The notes beneath the pieces were generated by a model. The model was not told the origin of the DNA. It searched no databases and worked only from the letters and a program-made list of their open reading frames with translations. From positions 3,650,968 through 3,714,967 of the forward strand of contig OY725497.1 in NCBI GenBank assembly GCA_963281255.1: DNA of 64,000 bases, written 5' to 3'. This DNA comes from Aphrocallistes beatrix (taxonomy: Eukaryota; Porifera; Hexactinellida; Sceptrulophora; Aphrocallistidae). The position numbers and the translations under genes were made by a program. This document shows positions 4,132 to 48,800 of this stretch, piece after piece. Each line of letters begins with the position of its first letter. Position 1 is the first letter of the stretch.

Positions 4132-7100
4132 ATGTCGGTTGAGCGAGATGGAACGCTTGACTACCGCAAATATTCCTACGCACCAGATGGCAGCATGGAT
4201 ATTGATAGATCTGTTACGCTCTCAACACACTCCCAAGAGTCGCTTCGCTATGGAGACAGTATATACTTGGCAGTAGCTGGCACGGAATCCCAGTCCCTTA
4301 AGGTAGTTTCTTCCTTCATCAGCAGCCCCATCCATCTGATCGTGACGCTAGATGAGTATTCGTACGGCGAAAAAACCAATCCCGCGCCTGATCTGCACAT
4401 GGCTGCATTTCGTGTTCTCGGTCCGAACAAGAGCCAGGCGCAAGATGAGTTGATCAAGTTCAGAGAGCATCACACGAAAAAGCTATCCCAGGAAGAGGAT
4501 AACAAACTCTTTACGCTAAAAAAGGAGGTTGAGAACGAAATTAGAGAAAATAAAAGCGAACAGTATCGTTTGTTAGGAAAGGAGATAGTATACGGCAACT
4601 GTTTCCAACTCCAGCATCACTATACGAATAAATTCCTAGGCGTTAGCGATAGTCAAACCGCAGTGGTTGACAGAGCCAGTCTGAAGGTCACTTTGTTTGA
4701 AACAAATGGGGAGCATGTCCAGTTCAAGATTACCCCCAAATATAAGGTCAGTAACATTGGAGATAAGATTCGTATTGAGGACCAAATCGTACTAGAAAAC
4801 GTAAAAGCACAGCAATACTTGCACATCAGCAATGCCCAAATAAAGAACTCCTTTTACGGTATTCAGCCCAATAGTCATGAAGTAAATGCATCTGCTGTTG
4901 ATTCTCCATTCTCCATCTATTCGCATATCAGATTGCAAGAGGGCGAATCGCAAGGGTTCAACAATATTCGCGGCGGGTCAGTCCTCCGACTCTACCATTT
5001 ACAGGTGCAGTGCTACGTAGTGGCTGCCGGTTCTTGTGGGTTCGCAGACGATGGAATAACGACTAGAGTTGTTACTGATGATGTGCATCTACGCACAAGA
5101 CAGATAAAATTTGGAGACCTTAAACCTCCTTCCACTTCCGCCATTACGTATTGGGAGATTGAGTTAGCGACAGCCCCTTTATCCGGCGATGAGCTAAAGT
5201 ACGAAGAGCCGTGTCGCCTGAAACACTTACTTACTCAGAGGTACTTGGCAGTGGTTAAAGTCAAATCCCAATTCGTCATCAAACTGATGCGACTGGAAGA
5301 TGATGAACGAGGGGGGGATACCTGTTTTGTTTTCAGGCCATTTATCAACGAAGGAAAGGAGATGATTGATTTCGAGTCGTATGCTCGAATTTATCACCCG
5401 GAAACTAGAACTTGGATAAAAGCGAGTGATGAACTTTATGAAGGTGACTCTGTGCCAACTGGGCCACTAGCTCTATCCGGGTTTAGATGGGACAATGCCA
5501 CTTGCTTTAAAATGCTAGTCGAACCATCCAAAGGTTACCATGATGCTTTCACCCTAGAGGAAGTTGACCCTGAACTTCTAGTTTATTTTCACTATGCCAT
5601 GGGATATTTGCCTGTCATCAGGAACTACCTCACAAGCTACAATGTTGAACTTAAGACTACTACTGTGATGGAGAGATCCTTGCAATCCCTCGCCGATTGG
5701 ATGCTAGACGCACATGACAAAAAAGATAGGAAGAAACGACAAAAACTCCTTCGGAACCTTGGCATCATAGAATTACTGATGGAAATTCAAAATCGATTTC
5801 GGGAAATTCCAGATGAACTTCGAGTTGGTCCGAACTATGAGAGGCGCAAAAATACGACTAAAAAGATCTACAAAGTAATCGAGGCTTACCTCACTGGAGA
5901 GAGTCGGAAGAATGAAAATTATACTTCTAAGTTCATTCCTATATTCGAGTCTCATTTCGATCTGAATATCAACGCAGAAGCAACCCTAATTGAGTTAGTA
6001 CGAGACAACAAAGCTATCATTGCACAGTTTAGCCAGGACTTCAAACAGGTGACAGAGAACTTGTTTAACAAATTAGCAAATACACGTAACTCTGAGATAT
6101 TTTACTACTTCGGTGTCATGTGCGTGGCAGATAACAACCCAATACAGGAGAACCAGGTGGTGCTTGCTAAACAGTTGCTAATCCCACAAGTTCAAAGCTC
6201 GATATTTCTCATGAAGCTTGATGATCCTAACGACCCTAATCCAAGACTCCTCGCCACTTCACCGCTAATGGCAGAAGGGTACAAACTCCTTTCAGAATAC
6301 GTTTCCGACAAGAACCCGAATACCAACACACCAACCTTCACATACCTACTGGCTCAGCTTGATTTCTTCTCTAATTTGTGTCAAGGAAATAATGAAAAGG
6401 CCATTAAAGCGCTGCAACAGCAGTTTCCATTCGAAGTTGTGTTCGCCGGCCTGATCGATAAGGAAATCCATCCACTGATCAGGGCCAAGTTCGCTAAGCT
6501 TATAAATACCATGTTCATCGATGTTGGTGCTAATCGTGCTGTGCTCGAAAACCTCACCTTAACCTTCGAATACGATAAGTGCACAGAAGACCCCGGGGAG
6601 GACACGGGTGCGAGTAACATCGCACTGAGTGGGGTAGAGAATATTTACTTTCCAAAGATGAAGCTTTGGTTTCTTGATTTTTTCAATAATTTAGTGCTGT
6701 ATGGAAAGGAAGATTTCATCTACACTAACGAGCTCATTGCAGCAGTATTGGACATGCTCTTGTTGTTTTCCAAGTTTGGTTATTATGATGACCAGGAAGA
6801 TGCAGATGATCTCCTGAAGCTGCTAATCAATATCTTGAATGGGAAAAAGGATAAGTACTTCCCTACCGATCCAAAATCTAGAAATGCAGCACTAGCAGCT
6901 CATACTTACTTTGAAGATAGCGGAAGGTACAAAGACATCAAGGCAAATGCACCTATATTCGATGTAAAAATTAAATGCTTACAAATCTTTGAGTTATTTA
7001 TGAACTTCAGATTTTACAAGCGACTGCAGCGTCTACTCTTCTTGTATCGTGTCGTTAAAAAGGAAGATAAGATTCAAGAGCCCAGGCACATTCTTGAACT

Positions 7101-10100
7101 CGCCGCAACTCCCGAAGATGTCCTTGCTCGTCATTTAGAACAGCTTCATAATGCAACCTTTGACATACACGAGCATGCGAACCTGTCACACAATGCTGTG
7201 GACCACTTGTCAATTAGGATATTAGAATATGCAAGGTATCAATTCGAGGGTTATTTTGGAGATGAAAAATTTGAATCCATTCTCCTGGACCTAACTCAAT
7301 ACGAGAACCTTGACCTCGTGACTACAGCTCTTCGCCTATTGAACAATCAATACATGGTAGAAAACAACCTATTCGAGAGAGCAATCCAAACACAGGTCCT
7401 AATCAATCCGAAGTCCATCGAATTCTTCAAGGAGACAGACGGAATTCTTCCTGAGTTTCGTCGTCTCCTCAAAGCATCCTTTACCAAGAGCGATAGTTGT
7501 AATCGTCTTGTTGAGATTTTGATCTATTTTATTCAGGCTTGCGAACTGCCCAATGATAAAACTGAAGCTCACCCCCAGAACCAAAAGATCCTCTACAATT
7601 TCGGCATCTTGGAAGACGTCCTGAACCTGCTAGAGAAGACACTGGATGACAGAGCTGTGCTCGTCTCTTCTTCACAAATGGTTATGGTCGACACCGATGG
7701 TCCTACCAGGCTTGCTAAAGTCTCATGCAAACTCCTGCAGAGGATGGCTCAGGACAACATTATCGTCCAACAACGACTCTACAACCGGCTTGAAATACTA
7801 GTAGACCAATCTTTATTCGACGTAGCTCCAAGCGAACTGTCCAGTCTGCTGACGCAATTGTTCACTGGAGCTCAAGACATCGTTATGAATGTGAAGGCTG
7901 ATGACATCAAATTGATTTGCTCCTTGATGAGACCCAGAGACACCCTCCTAATGCAGGACATCCCTCCAATCATAGAAATACTAAAAGCCGTTACTAAAGT
8001 TGAAGAAATCGATTTACCTCTCCACTTCAACCAGGTTCATATCATGAACAACTTCATACCTATCAAGCCGAAGCGGATTGATGATATTTTAGGAACGGAA
8101 GAAGAGAAACGTGAGAGAAGAGCAGAATTATTGAACACTGAAAAACCGGAAGAAAATGATTTGGTCGACCTAAACTTGATGCTGGCCACCTTCGACCTGA
8201 TGGCTTCACTCTGTGAAGGTGAGAACCTTCATCACGAGTCAGTTTGCCAATCCATGATGACTTTAGAAGAACTTTTAGAAATCTTGAATAACAAGAAATT
8301 GCCTTTCGATAGGAAATTCCAATTCGCTTCATTCTTCAATTGGGTTTACATGAATACCCACAAAGTTTCATCTGGATTTGACACCACGGTAGATGACGAT
8401 CCTGCATTTTGGGAATTTCTTGAGAATTCAAGTGACGTGCTGTCTGGTATGATTGCTTATCTGGGCAGGACTTCACCTGCTCGTGCTAGCGAGATAAAGA
8501 AAACTATCCACGAACAAGCTGAAAGCTCAATGAAGCATGACCTATCTGATAGTGGATCCAAATCTTCAATGCTTTTCATCGAGGCTTTTGACTACGGATT
8601 AATTAACTACCTCATGAAGGGTCTTTTGCCCATTATTATCGTATTCTACCGACGCTATTTCTCGACTCGTCCTAAGGAAGACGAAGCCCTTAAAAAGTAC
8701 GATCCATTGCTTATCTCATTTGGAATATGCAGGAAGCTATTCGAGTTGTCCATTAAACTACAGCCATACATCGCAACACAATATCACGCAAAGCTCTTGT
8801 ATGACGCAGCTCTCTCCATTCTCACTCATCCTGAGATCAGATCGCTACCTCAAATCGGTTCTTTTATCGATAACGATCAGCTGGCAGAGTTTTCAAAATT
8901 TGTGGATGAAGAAGACAGCTTTGTCGCGCAGGCAATACAGATATATCATGATGATTTCCAAGATGAAATCGAATTGAATGACCAGTTCAATAACTACGTG
9001 AAGCACCTGAGGAGAGCTTATTGGCGTAAGAACACTGTAAAAGATCAAATCAGTGGAAGTCATAGTTCGACATATTCGGAGTTCTTAGATCCTCTGTGTG
9101 AACACCCATCACCAGATTCTATGCCTCTCGGTCCCTCTTTCCAGAAGCACTTAGCATTATTCTTTACGCATACAGAAGAAGGTTGTGAAGTGAAGAAGAA
9201 ATTTGCTAGGAGTATCGTGCTACAACTCAGATATTCCATCGAAATATTTAATGAACTCACCGAACGGCAGAAGTTGAAGCAGGAACGACTTGACACCAAA
9301 TCATTGCAGCTATTGCGTGGAGCAATACACAACGAAATATTGTACATTGATCCAAACTTGAAAGATCAAAATCCTGTCCATTTTCGTAACGAGCTTGAAA
9401 AAGTGGAACAAGTTCAGAACACTATTGAAGATCTAGATAACACTTGCATTAAGGCGCTGATTTTGATTGACCATCCCAGCAAGGTAGTCTCTTCTCAAAG
9501 CATCTCTCTACTCGCTGACATGCTGTACGGTGGGAATGAGTATATTCAGTCTCAATTAGAAGCTTTAGCCGAGACACGAGAAGAGAAATTCTTCGATCAA
9601 ATGGAAGCTATTCTATTCTATGGAGGTAACAGTCTAATTGAAAGTCGCTCACTTACAGATGAATTGAGAAAGAGAGGTCTATTTGTAACCGAGATGAGAA
9701 TGCACTTGAAGAAAATTAATGAGCGCCTTGTTGGGCCACGAATCCAAACGCGAACTATGTCTACAGGCCGCGGATCTCCTGGTCTAACATTTGCACCCTA
9801 TAAAGGTCCAGATGAGTTAGATGATAGCAAACCCTTGGTCGATGTTCAGAAGGAGGGAATCGAGTTGACGCCCATTCAACAAGCTAATGTTAGCTTGAAT
9901 GTTCAAGGTGAAGAGACAGCCCGCGAAGATTCAATTGGTGAACTGGAAGAAGGCCAGGCTCCCAAAACAAGATTTGATATGTGTAAAGAAGAGTCCAAGA
10001 GCTCTCAACTAGAATCTAAACCTAATAAATCGCAATTGCAAGGTATAACTTTTCAGTGTAGTCTGCGTAATATCCAAGTTTCCTTCAAACTGATGGGTCT

Positions 10101-12240
10101 GATGTGTGATGGTCAGCAGAAATTCCTTCAAGACTACTTTCGTGAACAACCTGACAACCTCGAGAATATCAATATGGTTGTAAAGGCAGTGCAGTTCTTG
10201 AAAATATTTTACACGGAGATCAACAAAGAAAACATCTGTCTTGTTGCGCAGGTGTTTAGAACAGTCACTGAATTCATTAGTGGAAATTTTGATAATCAGA
10301 GCGATGCTTTCAGCTCCAAAATCATGGATATAGTTAACCGAATATTCCAGACTCCTACCTTTAAAGGCTGTACAATTGAAAACCTGGTCGATTTGTACGA
10401 CTCGATAATTCGCATGTTGCAAGTAATGTTAGAAGAAACGAGTTTATCTACGAAGAATCTTGCCCAGGATATTTTCAGCGTTCTAGATGTAGGTAGCGTT
10501 CATCTAGTAATATGGCTACTCAATGACATCAGATTGAACTCCACTGTTGAGCGAGATGTCCGTGACCTTGCAGAAGATGATATGTTCCGTCTTTTCCACT
10601 TTCTTATTCATTTGAAGGATTTTGAAGGCGTCCTGCAGTTAGAAGAGAGCTCCAAGATAGTTCCCCAAGAGAAAGATAAGCAGGAGTCCATATTGAGAGC
10701 TTGGAATTATTGTGAGAACAGATCTAAATCTGTAGAAGTTACATACATCACTGAAGATAACGTTCAGATCTTGAACAAGGTACATTTCAAGAGTCTTGAT
10801 TCTGGAATGTTAACTGATGACGTACGCGAGAAAGTGAAATGGGAAATAAACCGTGATTCAGCAGAGGATAAGCTTCGAGACTTTCTGGATTGGTTCAAAG
10901 CAGTCAAAATTGATCAAAAGTATCACTACAAATTGAGGAACACTCCGGTTATCAGCATCTACCTCAAATACCAAACTTGGAGGAAACGGCTATTCCTGCT
11001 ATGGAGCGTCATTATTAACTTATTCCTACTTTCAACCTGGCTCACGCCCTGTGGCCAGGTAGAAACGAACGTTGTGAACAATTCACAGTTAGTCTATGAG
11101 TGCGCTCCTGAGCCCGCCAATATCAGTGCAGACCGGTTAATACCGCCAATTTTACCTGTCGTCCCAGATTGGTATTTCTTTGCATTCTTTCCGCTAGGTG
11201 CTATTCACCTCTTGTTGGCTCTAGATCTATTGGTTCTCTTCTACATCGTAAATGGAATAAACTTCTACATCCCTTCGATTTTTTATCGCATTATCCCGAT
11301 AGGATTTGATAAGCGAAACTATCGAATTATCTGGAAAGACCCTCCTGAGAGGAGGTATCTCCAAGTAAATATAATTGGATCAAAAGTTGTCTTCATTTGG
11401 ATGATTTTCCTTTCTTCCATACTGTCTCTTCCCTTCCGTGGATACTTCTACCCCTTATCTCTGCTCTACATCCTAGAGAGGAGCGACATTCTCAGGCGGG
11501 TGTTGCTAGCGGTTACTAAGAATGGCAGATCCCTGATCTACGTTGCAATATTCGGTGTCATTTTACTCTACATATTTTCAGTGATCGCATTTGCATTATT
11601 TTACCAACAGGCTCAGTCTACAATCAGCCCTGATAATGCACCATACGTCTTCTGTCATTCTCTTTACGAATGCGCCATCAGCATCGGACGGTGGGGTCTG
11701 ATAGAGACAGTGGCAGTTATTCTCCCCCAACGTTCCATGGAATTCGCACCAGAAATAATCCGCATCATCTATGACATTGCGTTTTTCATCATCATTACGA
11801 CGATTGGATTGAACATCGTGTTCGGTATAATCGTAGACACATTCTCAGAGCTGCGAGACGAGAAGTACACTCAGGAAAAAGATATGAAGAGCGTGTGCTT
11901 CATATGCGGGATAGAAAATTATCTATTCGATCGTAAGGGAAAGGGGTTCAAAACTCATGTCCGGCATGAGCACAACATGTGGGACTATTACAGTTTCTTC
12001 CTCTACCTGGACAGCGTGGACCCGAGTGACCATACAGCAACTGAGAGCTTTGTGTTTAAACAGTTAGAAGAAAACGAAACTGTTTTCTTCCCGCAAAACG
12101 CTGCTCGTTCACTCACTCTGGAAGAAGATGAGACCGCCATGGAATTGATCGTGCTCGCTAACAAGTTAGAGGAACAGTCGAACCTCCTCAGAGATTTGAT
12201 GACCAAAATGAAAAAGTTGGAAACAAGGAAAACATTGTAA
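4132..12240 (+). CDS. Divergent inositol 1,4,5-trisphosphate receptor-like ER Ca2+ channel, single exon
   Basis: A 2702-residue protein in one uninterrupted 8.1-kb frame, the usual length of IP3 receptors (about 2700), which release Ca2+ from the ER. Order: N-terminal suppressor/MIR region (about 1-470), ligand-core helices and RIH-type armadillo regions (about 500-2250), then the channel with its first membrane segment near 2283, a pore region near 2500-2530 and the last helix GLNIVFGIIVDTFSELRDEK. The C-terminal zinc finger is intact (CFICG, later HVRHEHNMW), which fixes the family. Oddities: the pore reads GRWGLIETV (2519-2527) where GGGVGD is expected; the binding loop reads LRTRQ (320-324) where family members have LRTTGRQ; the tyrosine of the YRK contact is serine (S591-R592-K593). 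The basic cluster RQKLLR (536-541) is kept. It may be a paralogue with altered ligand and ion selectivity. A ryanodine receptor is excluded by length and absence of SPRY domains. Confidence 0.88.
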   Translation: MSVERDGTLDYRKYSYAPDGSMDIDRSVTLSTHSQESLRYGDSIYLAVAGTESQSLKVVSSFISSPIHLIVTLDEYSYGEKTNPAPDLHMAAFRVLGPNKSQAQDELIKFREHHTKKLSQEEDNKLFTLKKEVENEIRENKSEQYRLLGKEIVYGNCFQLQHHYTNKFLGVSDSQTAVVDRASLKVTLFETNGEHVQFKITPKYKVSNIGDKIRIEDQIVLENVKAQQYLHISNAQIKNSFYGIQPNSHEVNASAVDSPFSIYSHIRLQEGESQGFNNIRGGSVLRLYHLQVQCYVVAAGSCGFADDGITTRVVTDDVHLRTRQIKFGDLKPPSTSAITYWEIELATAPLSGDELKYEEPCRLKHLLTQRYLAVVKVKSQFVIKLMRLEDDERGGDTCFVFRPFINEGKEMIDFESYARIYHPETRTWIKASDELYEGDSVPTGPLALSGFRWDNATCFKMLVEPSKGYHDAFTLEEVDPELLVYFHYAMGYLPVIRNYLTSYNVELKTTTVMERSLQSLADWMLDAHDKKDRKKRQKLLRNLGIIELLMEIQNRFREIPDELRVGPNYERRKNTTKKIYKVIEAYLTGESRKNENYTSKFIPIFESHFDLNINAEATLIELVRDNKAIIAQFSQDFKQVTENLFNKLANTRNSEIFYYFGVMCVADNNPIQENQVVLAKQLLIPQVQSSIFLMKLDDPNDPNPRLLATSPLMAEGYKLLSEYVSDKNPNTNTPTFTYLLAQLDFFSNLCQGNNEKAIKALQQQFPFEVVFAGLIDKEIHPLIRAKFAKLINTMFIDVGANRAVLENLTLTFEYDKCTEDPGEDTGASNIALSGVENIYFPKMKLWFLDFFNNLVLYGKEDFIYTNELIAAVLDMLLLFSKFGYYDDQEDADDLLKLLINILNGKKDKYFPTDPKSRNAALAAHTYFEDSGRYKDIKANAPIFDVKIKCLQIFELFMNFRFYKRLQRLLFLYRVVKKEDKIQEPRHILELAATPEDVLARHLEQLHNATFDIHEHANLSHNAVDHLSIRILEYARYQFEGYFGDEKFESILLDLTQYENLDLVTTALRLLNNQYMVENNLFERAIQTQVLINPKSIEFFKETDGILPEFRRLLKASFTKSDSCNRLVEILIYFIQACELPNDKTEAHPQNQKILYNFGILEDVLNLLEKTLDDRAVLVSSSQMVMVDTDGPTRLAKVSCKLLQRMAQDNIIVQQRLYNRLEILVDQSLFDVAPSELSSLLTQLFTGAQDIVMNVKADDIKLICSLMRPRDTLLMQDIPPIIEILKAVTKVEEIDLPLHFNQVHIMNNFIPIKPKRIDDILGTEEEKRERRAELLNTEKPEENDLVDLNLMLATFDLMASLCEGENLHHESVCQSMMTLEELLEILNNKKLPFDRKFQFASFFNWVYMNTHKVSSGFDTTVDDDPAFWEFLENSSDVLSGMIAYLGRTSPARASEIKKTIHEQAESSMKHDLSDSGSKSSMLFIEAFDYGLINYLMKGLLPIIIVFYRRYFSTRPKEDEALKKYDPLLISFGICRKLFELSIKLQPYIATQYHAKLLYDAALSILTHPEIRSLPQIGSFIDNDQLAEFSKFVDEEDSFVAQAIQIYHDDFQDEIELNDQFNNYVKHLRRAYWRKNTVKDQISGSHSSTYSEFLDPLCEHPSPDSMPLGPSFQKHLALFFTHTEEGCEVKKKFARSIVLQLRYSIEIFNELTERQKLKQERLDTKSLQLLRGAIHNEILYIDPNLKDQNPVHFRNELEKVEQVQNTIEDLDNTCIKALILIDHPSKVVSSQSISLLADMLYGGNEYIQSQLEALAETREEKFFDQMEAILFYGGNSLIESRSLTDELRKRGLFVTEMRMHLKKINERLVGPRIQTRTMSTGRGSPGLTFAPYKGPDELDDSKPLVDVQKEGIELTPIQQANVSLNVQGEETAREDSIGELEEGQAPKTRFDMCKEESKSSQLESKPNKSQLQGITFQCSLRNIQVSFKLMGLMCDGQQKFLQDYFREQPDNLENINMVVKAVQFLKIFYTEINKENICLVAQVFRTVTEFISGNFDNQSDAFSSKIMDIVNRIFQTPTFKGCTIENLVDLYDSIIRMLQVMLEETSLSTKNLAQDIFSVLDVGSVHLVIWLLNDIRLNSTVERDVRDLAEDDMFRLFHFLIHLKDFEGVLQLEESSKIVPQEKDKQESILRAWNYCENRSKSVEVTYITEDNVQILNKVHFKSLDSGMLTDDVREKVKWEINRDSAEDKLRDFLDWFKAVKIDQKYHYKLRNTPVISIYLKYQTWRKRLFLLWSVIINLFLLSTWLTPCGQVETNVVNNSQLVYECAPEPANISADRLIPPILPVVPDWYFFAFFPLGAIHLLLALDLLVLFYIVNGINFYIPSIFYRIIPIGFDKRNYRIIWKDPPERRYLQVNIIGSKVVFIWMIFLSSILSLPFRGYFYPLSLLYILERSDILRRVLLAVTKNGRSLIYVAIFGVILLYIFSVIAFALFYQQAQSTISPDNAPYVFCHSLYECAISIGRWGLIETVAVILPQRSMEFAPEIIRIIYDIAFFIIITTIGLNIVFGIIVDTFSELRDEKYTQEKDMKSVCFICGIENYLFDRKGKGFKTHVRHEHNMWDYYSFFLYLDSVDPSDHTATESFVFKQLEENETVFFPQNAARSLTLEEDETAMELIVLANKLEEQSNLLRDLMTKMKKLETRKTL

Positions 12241-42800: not shown

Positions 42801-45800
42801 GTGATGGCCAGCCGGTCCTATGTTCCCTCCTACAAAAGTTTTAGTGATAGTTAAGAGCTTCCAATTTTCAGGAAAGGTGCAGTTAAACATGTAGATGTGC
42901 ACCTCGGTATACGATTTTCAATCCAACACATTGGCGAGGTAGTAAAATTATGTATTTATTTTTTATAGCTTTATATCTCAGTTATTACAGTAAATACTAA
43001 AGAGGATTTAGCAAACTATTATACTACTGCCTTCTCGCTCTGAGATTACTGTTACTCCAGTGTAACTCAGGGGCGGTCACAGGAATTTTCCAAACCAGGG
43101 CGAGGCGGGGCCAAAGAAAAAAATCCGGGGCCTTCCTATGATTTTGGCTTTAGGTGGTCGAATGAAATCCGGGGCCGCAGAATCAAACTCGGGGCAAATG
43201 CCCCGGATGCCCTCCCCTGGGACCGCCCCTGGTGTAACTCCACCCTAAAAGCAGTATTTTGCTCTATATATTTATCCAATTCACGAATAACTCGATAAAT
43301 AAATCTACATATGAAAGTAAGATTGATATAGTATTGACAATCAATTCCATTGAAATTAGAGTGGATTTATTAGACAAATTTCCTTCATATTTCGACATTT
43401 ACCAAAGAGAATCCGGCATTTTTCTTAGAAGATTTTGAAAATGAATTTCTCCTGTTGTTAGTGTTCGCTTCGCTCGTGAACTGTTTGACTTCTTGAGTAT
43501 ACGTTGAGTTGAGAATTTGACACACTTCGCTATTGCCGTTTTTTATCAAATTACTTAGCGTGTCGTTTTCCACGAGACGAGGCCCCTCCAGGATTATCAA
43601 CCTCTCGCAAGAAGATAATTGGATGAGTCTGTCTGTGAGATAAATTACTGTTTTTCCTCTGCAATGCGTTCGAATAATTTTGTGTACCTTACTCTCGGTT
43701 TCCTGGTCTAGAGAGTTGACTGCACTGTCCATAATTAATAGGTTGCTCTTTTTAAGGAGAGCCCGAGCTAACGAGAAAAGTTTCCTTTGCCCCTGACTAA
43801 ACGACTGATTGAACTGCGACATGTCAAAGCTCAACTGATTCGGGAGAGTATTAACTAAGTCCTTCAACTCGGTCATTTCTAATATTTCCCAAATCTCCTT
43901 ATCACTCGCCTTGTCAAATGGGTCTAAGTTTAATCGCAGTGTTCCAGGAAGTACCAAGCAATCGATAGGAATTATGGCAATGCTGTCTCGCAATACGCTG
44001 GGATGCACAGTTGTAATGTCAACATCATCAATCTTAATTCGACCACTGAACTCGTTTAAGCATGCCATTGCTGCTAAGGTAGCAGATGCGTTCTTCCCGA
44101 CAATTCCTATTGTTTCTCCAGACTTGATAGTGAACGAAATTTGTTGTAACATGTTAGGAAGATATGGTGCGAAACAAAAGGTCACATCTTCGAATTCAAT
44201 GGTCGGGTTAACAGGCCAATTTTCGCATACTTTTATTTCTCCTTCGTAATTGGGTTGAGAGGGCAAGTTTTGGTAACTGAAGAGCCTTTGCACCGATATC
44301 ATTTCATTTTCAACCTCGATGCTGAGAAGCATCCAATGTCTTAACATCCACAGAGCTAAGATGATTTGTCCAAGCGTGGTCGCTACGATGTAATCAGCTG
44401 CTGTGATGGCAGTCAATATCACCGCTGTTACTAACGAGAGAGTGAAAATTCCTATTATGCCAACGCGAATTCCAACCCAAATGTTAACCAGATGATAGGT
44501 ATAGTATGCGTTAGAATAGTTGTCCTGGCACTGGAGGAAATGGGACATTAGATTTTTCTGACAGTTGTGGGAATGTATGGTGAGGATACCATTCAGAGTG
44601 ATGTTGCTGTGGGAGTAGAGAGGGATGCAGAGCTTAGATTCGAGTGAGCGTACTGATCTCGAGGTTTTAAGGTAAATCCATCTGAATATGATGAGAATGA
44701 CGACTATAGTGAGAAGAGCTGGAATCAGAATGCTCTGGTTGATAGAAAACGTGAGCGCAATTACCCCGACAGATTGAGCTGTTAGAACTGTGAAGAAAGT
44801 AAAGTGGCACGGTAGGATGTCGTCACACACCGTGATGTCCCGAATGAACCTGTTCACAATGATGTCAACTGGAGTACGGATGAAGAAGGAATTCTTTGCT
44901 TTCAGAATGGAACTGTACATTTTATCATGGAGCGCATCTGAACACTGCAATAGAACAAACATCGTGACTACACAAAAGGAGAGATAACAGAGGACAGACA
45001 GAGCCGTGAAAACTGACACAGTGATGTATGTCTTCCATTTCTCTTCCACTGGAAAGGTGCTATTGTAAGAGTTATTGGATGTATTCAGCACTATTGTGAG
45101 TTCGCTGCTTGGAGGAAGGAAGAACCAGCCTACTAATGACAAGATATTGGCTGTCTCAGCTAGGATTGCCAGTATTAGCAGTGCGTAGATAATTGCTATA
45201 TTCGACCCTGATAACATATAGTTAATGTAGGTCCTGAAGGAGATGTGATGAATCATTTCGTCTTCCTTTACATTGTATGTCTGTCTCCAATCTCCGCTAT
45301 CTTGAGATTGCAAAATCCCCCTTGATTTTTGTCGCAGCATTTTGCTCCCTCGCTTAGCAGATAACCTATGATCATTGTGACTTTGTTTCGATCCTGAATC
45401 TTGATCCTCTGTTATTGACAGCCTTAGCCTACTGAAAATATCCTTTATCTCACCGTTCTTCATCTTAATTTCCCTCGTGACGAGATTTAAAATTTCTACC
45501 TGGTTGGTAGCAATTAAAACGATCTTATCAGACATTAATTTATCGATTAAATTTCTGAATATCGTAATGGATGACTTGAGGTCGATTGAACTGAAAATAT
45601 CATCAAAAAGATAGATGTCGGCCTTTTTATAGATTGCTCGTGCAATACAGATCTTCATTGCCATAGGACCTTTTATGCTCGCCTCATCCATGACTTGTGT
45701 TTCGTCTTCGATTCCTAGACACCTGGATTCCTCTTCAACGCCACAAATGTTAATCACTTCCTGGTACCAATCTTCATCTACCTCCTCGCAGAATATTATA

Positions 45801-48800
45801 TTTTCTTTGATGTTTCCATCGAATAGCCAAGCTTCTTTAGGTACGAACACTAGACTGCCTTTTTTCTCGATCTTGAGGTCCTCTGGTGTGTCAAATTCCC
45901 CGATTATTGAGAGCAGCAATTCAGAATTACCTGCAGTGATGTTACCAGATATTCCAACTATATTTTTCCCAGTTTCTGGATAGGCAATCAGTGAGATTTG
46001 TGAATTGTTTGTTGAGGATATTTTAAGATATGTCTTATTCTCTTGTTCTGTACTTTGAAGTTGGACCATCTCATGATTTAAAACTGAGCCATTCTGAGTG
46101 ACATCCTTGACTCTTTCTGGTGTATCAGCATTTGGTTTCTTGAGAGATGCGTCGGTAACACACTCATACTCAGGCAAATCCAAAAGTCTTGCTATTCTTT
46201 TCAAAGATAGATTGATCTCTTTAATAAGATAGATTGCATGATTGAATTCAAATACTAGTGTGCCACTGAGCTGTGCGAATATTAGAAATCCTGCGTTTAC
46301 CTGTCCTGCCGAAATTTGTTTCCCTAATGCGAGAGAGTAGGTCAATCCTGTGAGGTACGTTGTAACAGTTGGACAGATTAAGAAAAATATTATTTTTAAA
46401 AATCTGATCAAACTCTGTTTTTTGAGAAAATTGTCTTCTGTGTTTTTAGCCTGGTACATGATTTTCGAAATTGGTTCTTCCCAAGCCAGCAGCCTCACAA
46501 TGCTTATGTTTGCGATCAAATTCTGTACACAATCTAACCGGCGATCAGCATACTGCAGCATTTTATTTCTAAAACTTTGAAATTTGTTTGATAATAGCAA
46601 TTGAATGATAGACACGATTGTTAAAAATACAACTCCGGGAATCACTGAGTACTCCAATCCCAGTCTGGTCCACATAAAGAATATGACCGCTGCAAGCTCT
46701 ATCGGAGCTATCCAAAGAATGTGGATGGTAGCTATCCCCTCTCGGAATATCTGCGTGTCTGAAGATATCAGATGGATTACATTGAAATCTTTCAATGCAG
46801 ATTGCTTAACTCTCAGGAGTTTTGAATATATGATGGTTTCGAAGAGAACTCGAAGATGTGTTGAGTTGAAAGCATCAAAATATGATTTGAGAGTCGAAGT
46901 TATGATCTCTCCTAAGGCAGCTGCTATCAGAACACACGCAGTCATTATGACGGCATTCGAGCCTGAATCAGGGTCGGAATTCTGCTGTGTGATATTGGTT
47001 GGATTGTTGGCTGTGCTATTTCCGGATGAGCCGACTAGTGCGGCTAGAAGCAAGTCCTTCGTTAAATTCAGAGAATGTTCGAGAAAAATGAATATCCCAG
47101 TTAGGAAGAAGTTAATACTCACTGACTTGATGAGAATCCATTTTAGAACCAGGACCGTATTCGATATTCCTGGTCTGTTATTTAGATGTTTTGAAATACA
47201 TCTCCAATCTCGTGTCATCTTATTGCAGACTTTTTCTCCTTTATAACTTTCTTTTACTCGACAGAGATCTTTATCTTCTAACTTCCTCCTTACCCCATTG
47301 ATGAAAAGAAGATCGATAAATAAATCTGCAAATACATTTTTGATACCCACAATACAATCCATTTAAATTAAAAGGCACTGATAAACCGTTTTATATTAAG
47401 AAATATGGCATCAAATTATCTATTTATATAATCTCACAAGCGGATTTTGACGCTTTGAATAGGATTCTAACAGTATTAATTGTGTTTCCCCAACTGTTAG
47501 TAGCTATTGTGCTGTGGATAAACTTCTTGTAACGTATAAATTGCATTCATCACTTTGTAATTAAAATATGCATCACATCAGTCTACTCAATGTGTCATCT
47601 TATTTCCTCATTTTTTGCCCTATCACCCAAGTATTTATATGGGTTCTATATGGGTACATTCATTAACATGTTTACGCAACTTGGCCTAAAGAATGTCATC
47701 GTAATTTTCGTCATTGATTCATGATGACGTGACAAATTTACTTCCCTTCGTGTTTCGTACACCTAGATCAGGTTTCAAGTAATTTTCTTACTAAATATCA
47801 GGAGTGGATATAAGTCTCAAATCAGCAGGTTTACAACTAGGGGTTACAATCCCGAGATTTGTCGGGATTGTATCTTAGGAACAAAATTTTTGTGAATGTC
47901 AATTTGGGAAGTTTAGAGAAGGAAGTTTTTAATTTGATTCTTGGCAAACACAGACATAGATTCTGAATTTTTGATTTTGTAATATGAATATGAATAGCTA
48001 TTTTTTATTGTTCCAAATTAAGCAAAGAGTATTTAATGTACTTGTAATCAATCATCGTATATTCTTGTTGTTATTTAACACTAAATGATGTATTTGTAAG
48101 TTACCATTGTAAATAGATTATTGTTTCCAAGTAATGTGATTATACAATGGATAAATTATAAGGAAATTGGTCTATTGTTGAAACATAGAGTAAGATAGAC
48201 ATAACACTAAAATTTCGGGATCCCAGGATTGTAGCTCCTATTTACAACAAGCGCCAGCTCCGGATAATAAAATTCTTAATAATTAGTACAATGTCTTCGA
48301 TGTACTATGTATTAACGAGAATTAACGTATGTCCATAACTAAAATCTGTAGGTATGTTTATATATTATTTATGTTTAGACCTTCTTTAAATTCTAACGAA
48401 CTGGTCAAAATTGGAGAGAGTGAATATATACAGTCGAATGCAAGCACACCTCTCCCTACCATTCCTATTCTCACATCAAGGCAAGACTTTGGTACGTGTC
48501 TCTATAATGAATAATGTAATTGCTGTTAGGTATTTTAGTGTGCTTCCTATACTATTTATTATTATATAGGATCTATCATCCTATATTATAATAGTACACT
48601 GGGTGCACAGTTCAAAATGAGTGTTGGTGTCCGGCCATGTATAATCGGGGTACAGCGACTAAATAACATAACATTTCACATGTGTATTCTCACGATAAGT
48701 TGGAAGCACACCGTCCCGTCTGTGAGGGTTTAACTATATTGTTAATTATTCGATTGTCAAAACTTTTTTTATAATTTGATCAACTTGATAGATTTGCCAT

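Follow-up and report, generated by a model that had tools for sequence, protein, structure and literature searches.

The 64,000-nucleotide stretch of Aphrocallistes beatrix contig OY725497.1 that we analyzed (assembly GCA_963281255.1, positions 3,650,968 to 3,714,967; hereafter, the window) contains, on its minus strand, an uninterrupted gene for a full-length protein of the ABCC family in which both ATP sites are degenerate. Its sequence makes it likely that this gene is a pseudo-ATPase maintained by selection, that is, an ABCC4-type membrane protein which has lost hydrolysis at both composite sites. The job of the protein is probably something other than ATP-driven pumping. An earlier note on this DNA had proposed a pseudo-ATPase rather than simple decay, and four lines of evidence agree with that proposal. 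The open frame leaves too little room for neutral change to explain the loss of motifs, and residues that are invariant in the family were retained mainly outside the ATP motifs. Moreover, 29 full-length paralogues in the same genome carry canonical motifs, one of them with LSRGQ, and paralogues with broken frames decay in the opposite way. Catalytic residues are lost, and the reading frame and, as judged by profile match only, the fold are kept.

The gene consists of one single-exon open reading frame (ORF), and an in-frame stop codon directly precedes its ATG. The earlier note had counted 1,325 open codons without giving a strand; this frame was confirmed on the minus strand. Regarding lesions expected of a pseudogene, 0 stops were found in the 1,325 codons, whereas the remaining five frames over the same interval contain 41 to 113 stops each. 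The probability that as many codons stay open in random sequence of the same composition is approximately 1e-38. A Pfam scan of the encoded protein returned two ABC_membrane and two ABC_tran stretches.

Degeneration of both composite ATP sites

The motifs in the two nucleotide-binding domains (NBDs) were scored by ten tests, the patterns of which were written after the motif table of the family had been inspected. The window protein failed 8 of the 10, passing only those for the NBD1 Walker B and the NBD2 signature. Most of these lesions had been read correctly from the letters: the Walker A of NBD1 is GNITAGNS with its lysine changed to N479, the NBD1 signature is IKGPM, the NBD2 catalytic glutamate is S1213, and the Walker B core of NBD1 (LFDD) and the signature of NBD2 (FSQGQ) survive. 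The lysine is also lost from the NBD2 Walker A, GKNASATL, but T1095 could not be upheld as its replacement. A manual count with the stretches side by side showed this P-loop region to be 4 residues net shorter than in four paralogues of the same genome, so that the assignment of T1095 is an alignment choice only. Both H-loop histidines are replaced as claimed (N620 and D1244). However, asparagine in NBD1 alone is not diagnostic, since TNQ stands at this position in the solved structure of "ABC transporter C family member 2" (9li5) as well. In addition to the lesions listed in the earlier note, both Q-loop glutamines are lost (K509 and I1133).

The damage is asymmetric. Nucleotide-binding site 2 (NBS2), which combines the Walker A, Q-loop, catalytic glutamate and H-loop of NBD2 with the NBD1 signature, is nearly erased, with little remaining beyond Asp1212 and one signature glycine. 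NBS1 is partly kept. Its lysine and Q-loop are lost, but the Walker B aspartates and the Walker A serine of NBD1 persist, as do D-loop residues and the signature of NBD2. According to a review (PMC7756269), ABCC proteins hydrolyze ATP at NBS2, whereas their NBS1 is degenerate yet binds ATP. All four elements that mark a functional consensus NBS2 in ABCC proteins, the NBD2 Walker A lysine, the catalytic glutamate, the histidine and the NBD1 LSGGQ, are missing from the window protein. It is extremely improbable, judging by these motifs, that the protein is still an active pump which relies on unusual ATP chemistry. Although Walker B aspartates and the NBD2 signature are present, neither Walker A has its lysine and neither Q-loop its glutamine. 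NBD1 has lost its signature, and NBD2, with a shortened P-loop region, lacks its catalytic glutamate and histidine. To our knowledge, no ABC ATPase works without all of these elements.

Frame maintenance and residue retention

Relatives of the gene were sought in its own assembly (100.5 Mb, 28 contigs). A protein search yielded at least 44 matches (best 35 of 82 candidates scored), and the nearest paralogue among the matches listed shared 29% identity in the search and 27% over the full alignment. In a DNA search, only the gene itself matched, with no near copy. Pattern searches for relatives gave 0 matches in viral contigs and 21 pattern matches in genome contigs, 0 of which were relatives. 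The PF00664 domain had at least 76 matches in the genome (best 73 of 116 candidates scored). For comparison, 34 further ABCC loci (L009 to L042) were taken and sorted by their longest frame: 29 encode more than 1,150 amino acids, whereas in the other 5 a stop or a frame change interrupts the coding sequence. Most of the 34 loci consist of one open frame of about 1,260 to 1,340 amino acids, and some are near-identical (99.8% for L033 and L034). All 29 full-length paralogues passed nine of the motif tests and 28 passed the tenth, the exception being L011 with LSRGQ. The genome contains at least 29 full-length paralogues whose near-perfect motifs can serve for comparison.

A pseudogene, either young, with a few hits that fell by chance on the ATP sites, or old, with a frame left open by luck, would account for the loss of most ATP-site elements and for an end branch that is by far the longest of 30. 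Frame-broken ABCC copies do occur in this genome, and the coding frame does not stand out in codon-bias tests. We nevertheless regard this explanation as very unlikely, having lowered it on account of a neutral simulation, the state of the broken paralogues and the retention of invariant residues. The simulation was started from the present frame and covered nine divergences, assuming 5 indels per 100 substitutions, 80% of them frame-shifting. The catalytic set comprised 22 residues of our own choosing, with H620 not counted; 12 of these are lost in the window protein. At 0.02 changes per site, the mean number of stops was 3.2, the probability of no stop was 0.04, and about 4% of residues had changed. 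A stop-free frame is compatible with about 0.01 to 0.02 neutral changes per site, which should have cost a young pseudogene no more than about 1 of the 22 catalytic residues rather than the 12 observed. Losing 12 becomes likely only near 0.3 changes per site, where about 31 stops are expected, and an old pseudogene should thus show tens of stops as well as frameshifts. The best joint probability of an open frame and the motif loss over the nine divergences was approximately 2e-13. These figures indicate that nearly all of the motif losses occurred while the frame was being maintained.

The frame-broken paralogues (L018, L021, L029, L030 and L032) display the reverse pattern, with the frame gone and canonical ATP motifs present. 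Both signatures, both Walker B motifs, both H-loops and the NBD2 Walker A are kept in 5/5, and the NBD1 Walker A was found in 4/5. It should be noted that this search covered the Walker A, Walker B, signature and H-loop motifs, and that some of the breaks could be assembly errors or introns.

To locate the retained residues, the protein was compared with 20 ABCC representatives of less than 80% identity, in which 126 columns are invariant in 20/20. It keeps 19 of 21 such residues in the transmembrane domains (TMDs; 5/5 in TMD1 and 14/16 in TMD2), which also argues against a pseudogene, 26 of 43 in the NBD scaffold and 23 of 62 in the ATP motifs (Fisher test, 2e-5 for TMD versus motif and 0.03 for scaffold versus motif). 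The more conserved the TMD columns are in the family, the higher their retention, which climbs from 0.18 to 0.68. The control scored every representative on the columns invariant in the other 19 and gave 62/62 to 62/65 for motifs, 43/43 to 43/46 for scaffold and 21/21 to 21/25 for TMDs. By these figures, the window protein falls within the canonical range for TMD retention and far from it for motif retention. The terminal branch, expressed relative to all other branches, measured 0.15 for TMD1, 0.19 for TMD2, 0.28 and 0.17 for the NBD1 and NBD2 scaffolds, and 0.43 and 1.34 for the NBD1 and NBD2 motifs. The segments which we take to be coupling helices are partly kept, with AWE present in the second, NRFxRDxxxxDDxLP in the third and LxGxxTI in the fourth.

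Several results weigh against a pseudo-ATPase under selection. When the cut is relaxed to 18/20, the contrast becomes smaller: 34/50 residues are kept in the TMDs, 39/65 in the scaffold and 33/77 in the motifs (Fisher test, 0.007 for TMD versus motif and 0.045 for scaffold versus motif). Absolute branch lengths are similar in the four domains (1.79 to 2.41), and relaxed constraint on the whole protein would give the same outcome. The end branch amounts to 3.33 changes per column (1.8 to 2.4 by domain under another model), a length that renders the alignment and branch lengths uncertain and may have inflated those of the motifs. The two TMD invariants that are lost (G833D and S913I) map to coupling-helix segments or their vicinity, and none of the MRP4 pocket residues Q994, W995 and R998 is conserved at its matching position. 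The all-codon score of the gene, although highest in the coding frame, is low at 0.045 per codon compared to 0.13 to 0.31 in five other genes of the window (one of them part of the training set). By the synonymous-only codon score, the coding frame (0.023) falls below one antisense frame (0.038). In the family, this score puts the gene in 16th place among 30, counted from the lowest, and thus neither above nor below its canonical kin. The altered pocket was also considered as a sign of a new ligand; this idea was dropped because canonical paralogues vary there too, R998 being absent in 9 of the 29.

Feature coordinates and genomic setting

The features of the gene are compiled in Table 1. Elsewhere in the window, single open frames encode an IP3 receptor, an alanyl-tRNA synthetase, a WD40/Utp12 protein and a copine, and pieces of calreticulin-family and glypican genes are present as well. 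This gene content and the single-frame genes identify the window as animal DNA that is gene-dense and apparently intron-poor. The IP3-receptor-like protein (positions 4132 to 12240) comprises 2,702 amino acids in one open frame; such a length without interruption is unusual for an animal gene. For the glass sponge Aphrocallistes vastus, 12,409 single-exon transcripts versus 19,578 genes are reported (PMC10282587). Glass sponges thus fit the picture obtained for the window. A dispersed repeat of about 165 bp is located just downstream of the ABCC gene (positions 43068 to 43231), and at least 39 further copies with 87 to 95% identity were found in the genome (best 40 of 294 candidates scored).

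Table 1. Coordinates of the ABCC gene and its features in the window
Feature	Position	Strand	Remark
Single-exon ORF, ABCC4/MRP4-type full-length ABC protein, both ATP sites degenerate	43385..47362	-	1325 aa
TMD1 (about aa 76-400)	46163..47137	-	boundaries approximate; 5/5 family-invariant residues kept
NBD1 (about aa 441-650)	45413..46042	-	boundaries approximate
TMD2 (about aa 701-1030)	44273..45262	-	boundaries approximate; 14/16 family-invariant residues kept; G833D, S913I lost
NBD2 (about aa 1031-1290)	43493..44272	-	boundaries approximate
NBD1 Walker A GNITAGNS, Lys to Asn479	45923..45946	-	canonical in 29/29 full-length paralogues
NBD1 Q-loop, Gln to Lys509	45836..45838	-	
NBD1 signature, LSGGQ to IKGPM	45662..45676	-	
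NBD1 Walker B YLFDD, kept	45599..45613	-	
NBD1 H-loop Asn620	45503..45505	-	His in 29/29 full-length paralogues; Asn also in 9li5
NBD2 P-loop GKNASATL, Lys lost, region net 4 residues short	44075..44098	-	
NBD2 Q-loop, Gln to Ile1133	43964..43966	-	
NBD2 signature FSQGQ, kept	43787..43801	-	
NBD2 catalytic Glu to Ser1213; Walker B Asp1212 kept	43724..43726	-	
NBD2 H-loop, His to Asp1244	43631..43633	-	
AATAAA, poly(A)-signal-like, 13 nt past stop codon	43366..43371	-	one hexamer, candidate
TTTATCAG, acceptor-like, 15 nt upstream of ATG	47378..47385	-	by eye, candidate

Possible roles and relation to known ABCC proteins

The kept membrane core suggests that the NBDs are still docking. In the mechanism that we propose, they would retain their fold and their contact with the coupling helices. 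Judging by the motifs, no ATP would be hydrolyzed and primary active pumping would be lost; any nucleotide binding would be weak at most and confined to NBS1, where the Walker B, the D-loop and the NBD2 signature survive. The protein would then serve as a regulator or a passive pathway, not as a pump. That a full-length exporter abandoned hydrolysis at both sites and was co-opted for ATP-independent work as a channel, a facilitator or a regulatory subunit, in an animal genome that also encodes a large canonical ABCC family, is a plausible scenario, held with some reservation. The most likely role is given more tentatively: the protein may be a membrane component that acts independently of hydrolysis, for example, a regulatory subunit resembling the sulphonylurea receptor or a facilitator of passive flux, and NBS1 may still bind some nucleotide.

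Two narrower alternatives were weighed. One is an ATP-independent channel or facilitator, in which the ABCC transmembrane pathway would be fixed in a conducting state. The loss of ATP chemistry alongside retention of nearly all TMD invariants and much of the coupling-helix segments is consistent with it, as is a D-loop mutant of ABCB2 (TAP1) that, according to the review mentioned above (PMC7756269), turned the pump into a nucleotide-gated facilitator. The changes at all three MRP4 pocket positions speak against such a pathway, which we judge unlikely. The other, by analogy with the degenerate site of CFTR and SUR, is a nucleotide-gated protein that would bind ATP only at NBS1, without hydrolysis, and thereby control a channel or a partner; this appears rather doubtful. 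NBS1 is far less damaged than NBS2, and an NCBIfam scan placed CFTR (400 bits) above MRP (387 bits), both below the cut-offs of the models. In the four canonical paralogues scanned, MRP exceeded CFTR by 105 to 149 bits, again below the cut-offs, leaving the window protein as the only one of five with the CFTR model on top. On the other hand, NBD1 has likewise lost its Walker A lysine and its Q-loop glutamine, the stretch between NBD1 and TMD2 is 74 amino acids long (69 to 101 in the 29 paralogues) and holds no R domain, and in direct comparison the best CFTR chain reached 328 bits versus 478 for MRP4. A CFTR-like identity, raised by the order of the NCBIfam models, was lowered because the R domain is absent and the direct match favors MRP4.

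A single dead or degenerate site is common and ordinary in ABCC proteins; the new aspect would be the apparent loss of both in a member that is full-length and frame-intact. Among the matches listed, titles and abstract openings of the open-license PMC literature did not describe any ABC protein of full length in which both sites are dead. If the pseudo-ATPase is indeed under selection with both sites dead, the structural role of the NBDs can be separated from the role of ATP, and the gene offers a natural test of an ABCC membrane core that functions without hydrolysis.

By descent, the protein belongs to the ABCC (MRP/CFTR) subfamily, as its TMD-NBD-TMD-NBD layout and its best similarity to ABCC proteins demonstrate. 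In a phmmer search of solved structures, MRP4/ABCC4 was the best match (E value of 4e-142, 478 bits, query residues 16 to 1291 aligned to 27 to 1280), and all of the 60 best matches shown were ABCC proteins. The canonical paralogue L009 scores 887 bits to MRP4. The window protein shares the four-domain order of MRP4, and its coupling-helix segments remain recognizable, but both of its ATP sites are broken. CFTR is likewise an ABCC protein that is not a pump; it differs in its long R domain, missing here, and in retaining a working NBS2, of which the window protein appears to have none. SUR1 and SUR2 (ABCC8/9) are precedents for an ABCC protein that serves as a regulatory subunit and does not transport. 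Their NBDs bind nucleotide, and they possess a TMD0, which is absent from the window protein since the MRP4 match starts at query residue 16. CFTR and SUR illustrate that ABCC proteins can cease pumping and yet retain nucleotide-driven chemistry. In type I exporters with one degenerate site, such as MRP1 and TAP, that site lost catalytic residues and stayed constrained; according to the review (PMC7756269), these exporters keep one consensus site, whereas the window protein has neither.

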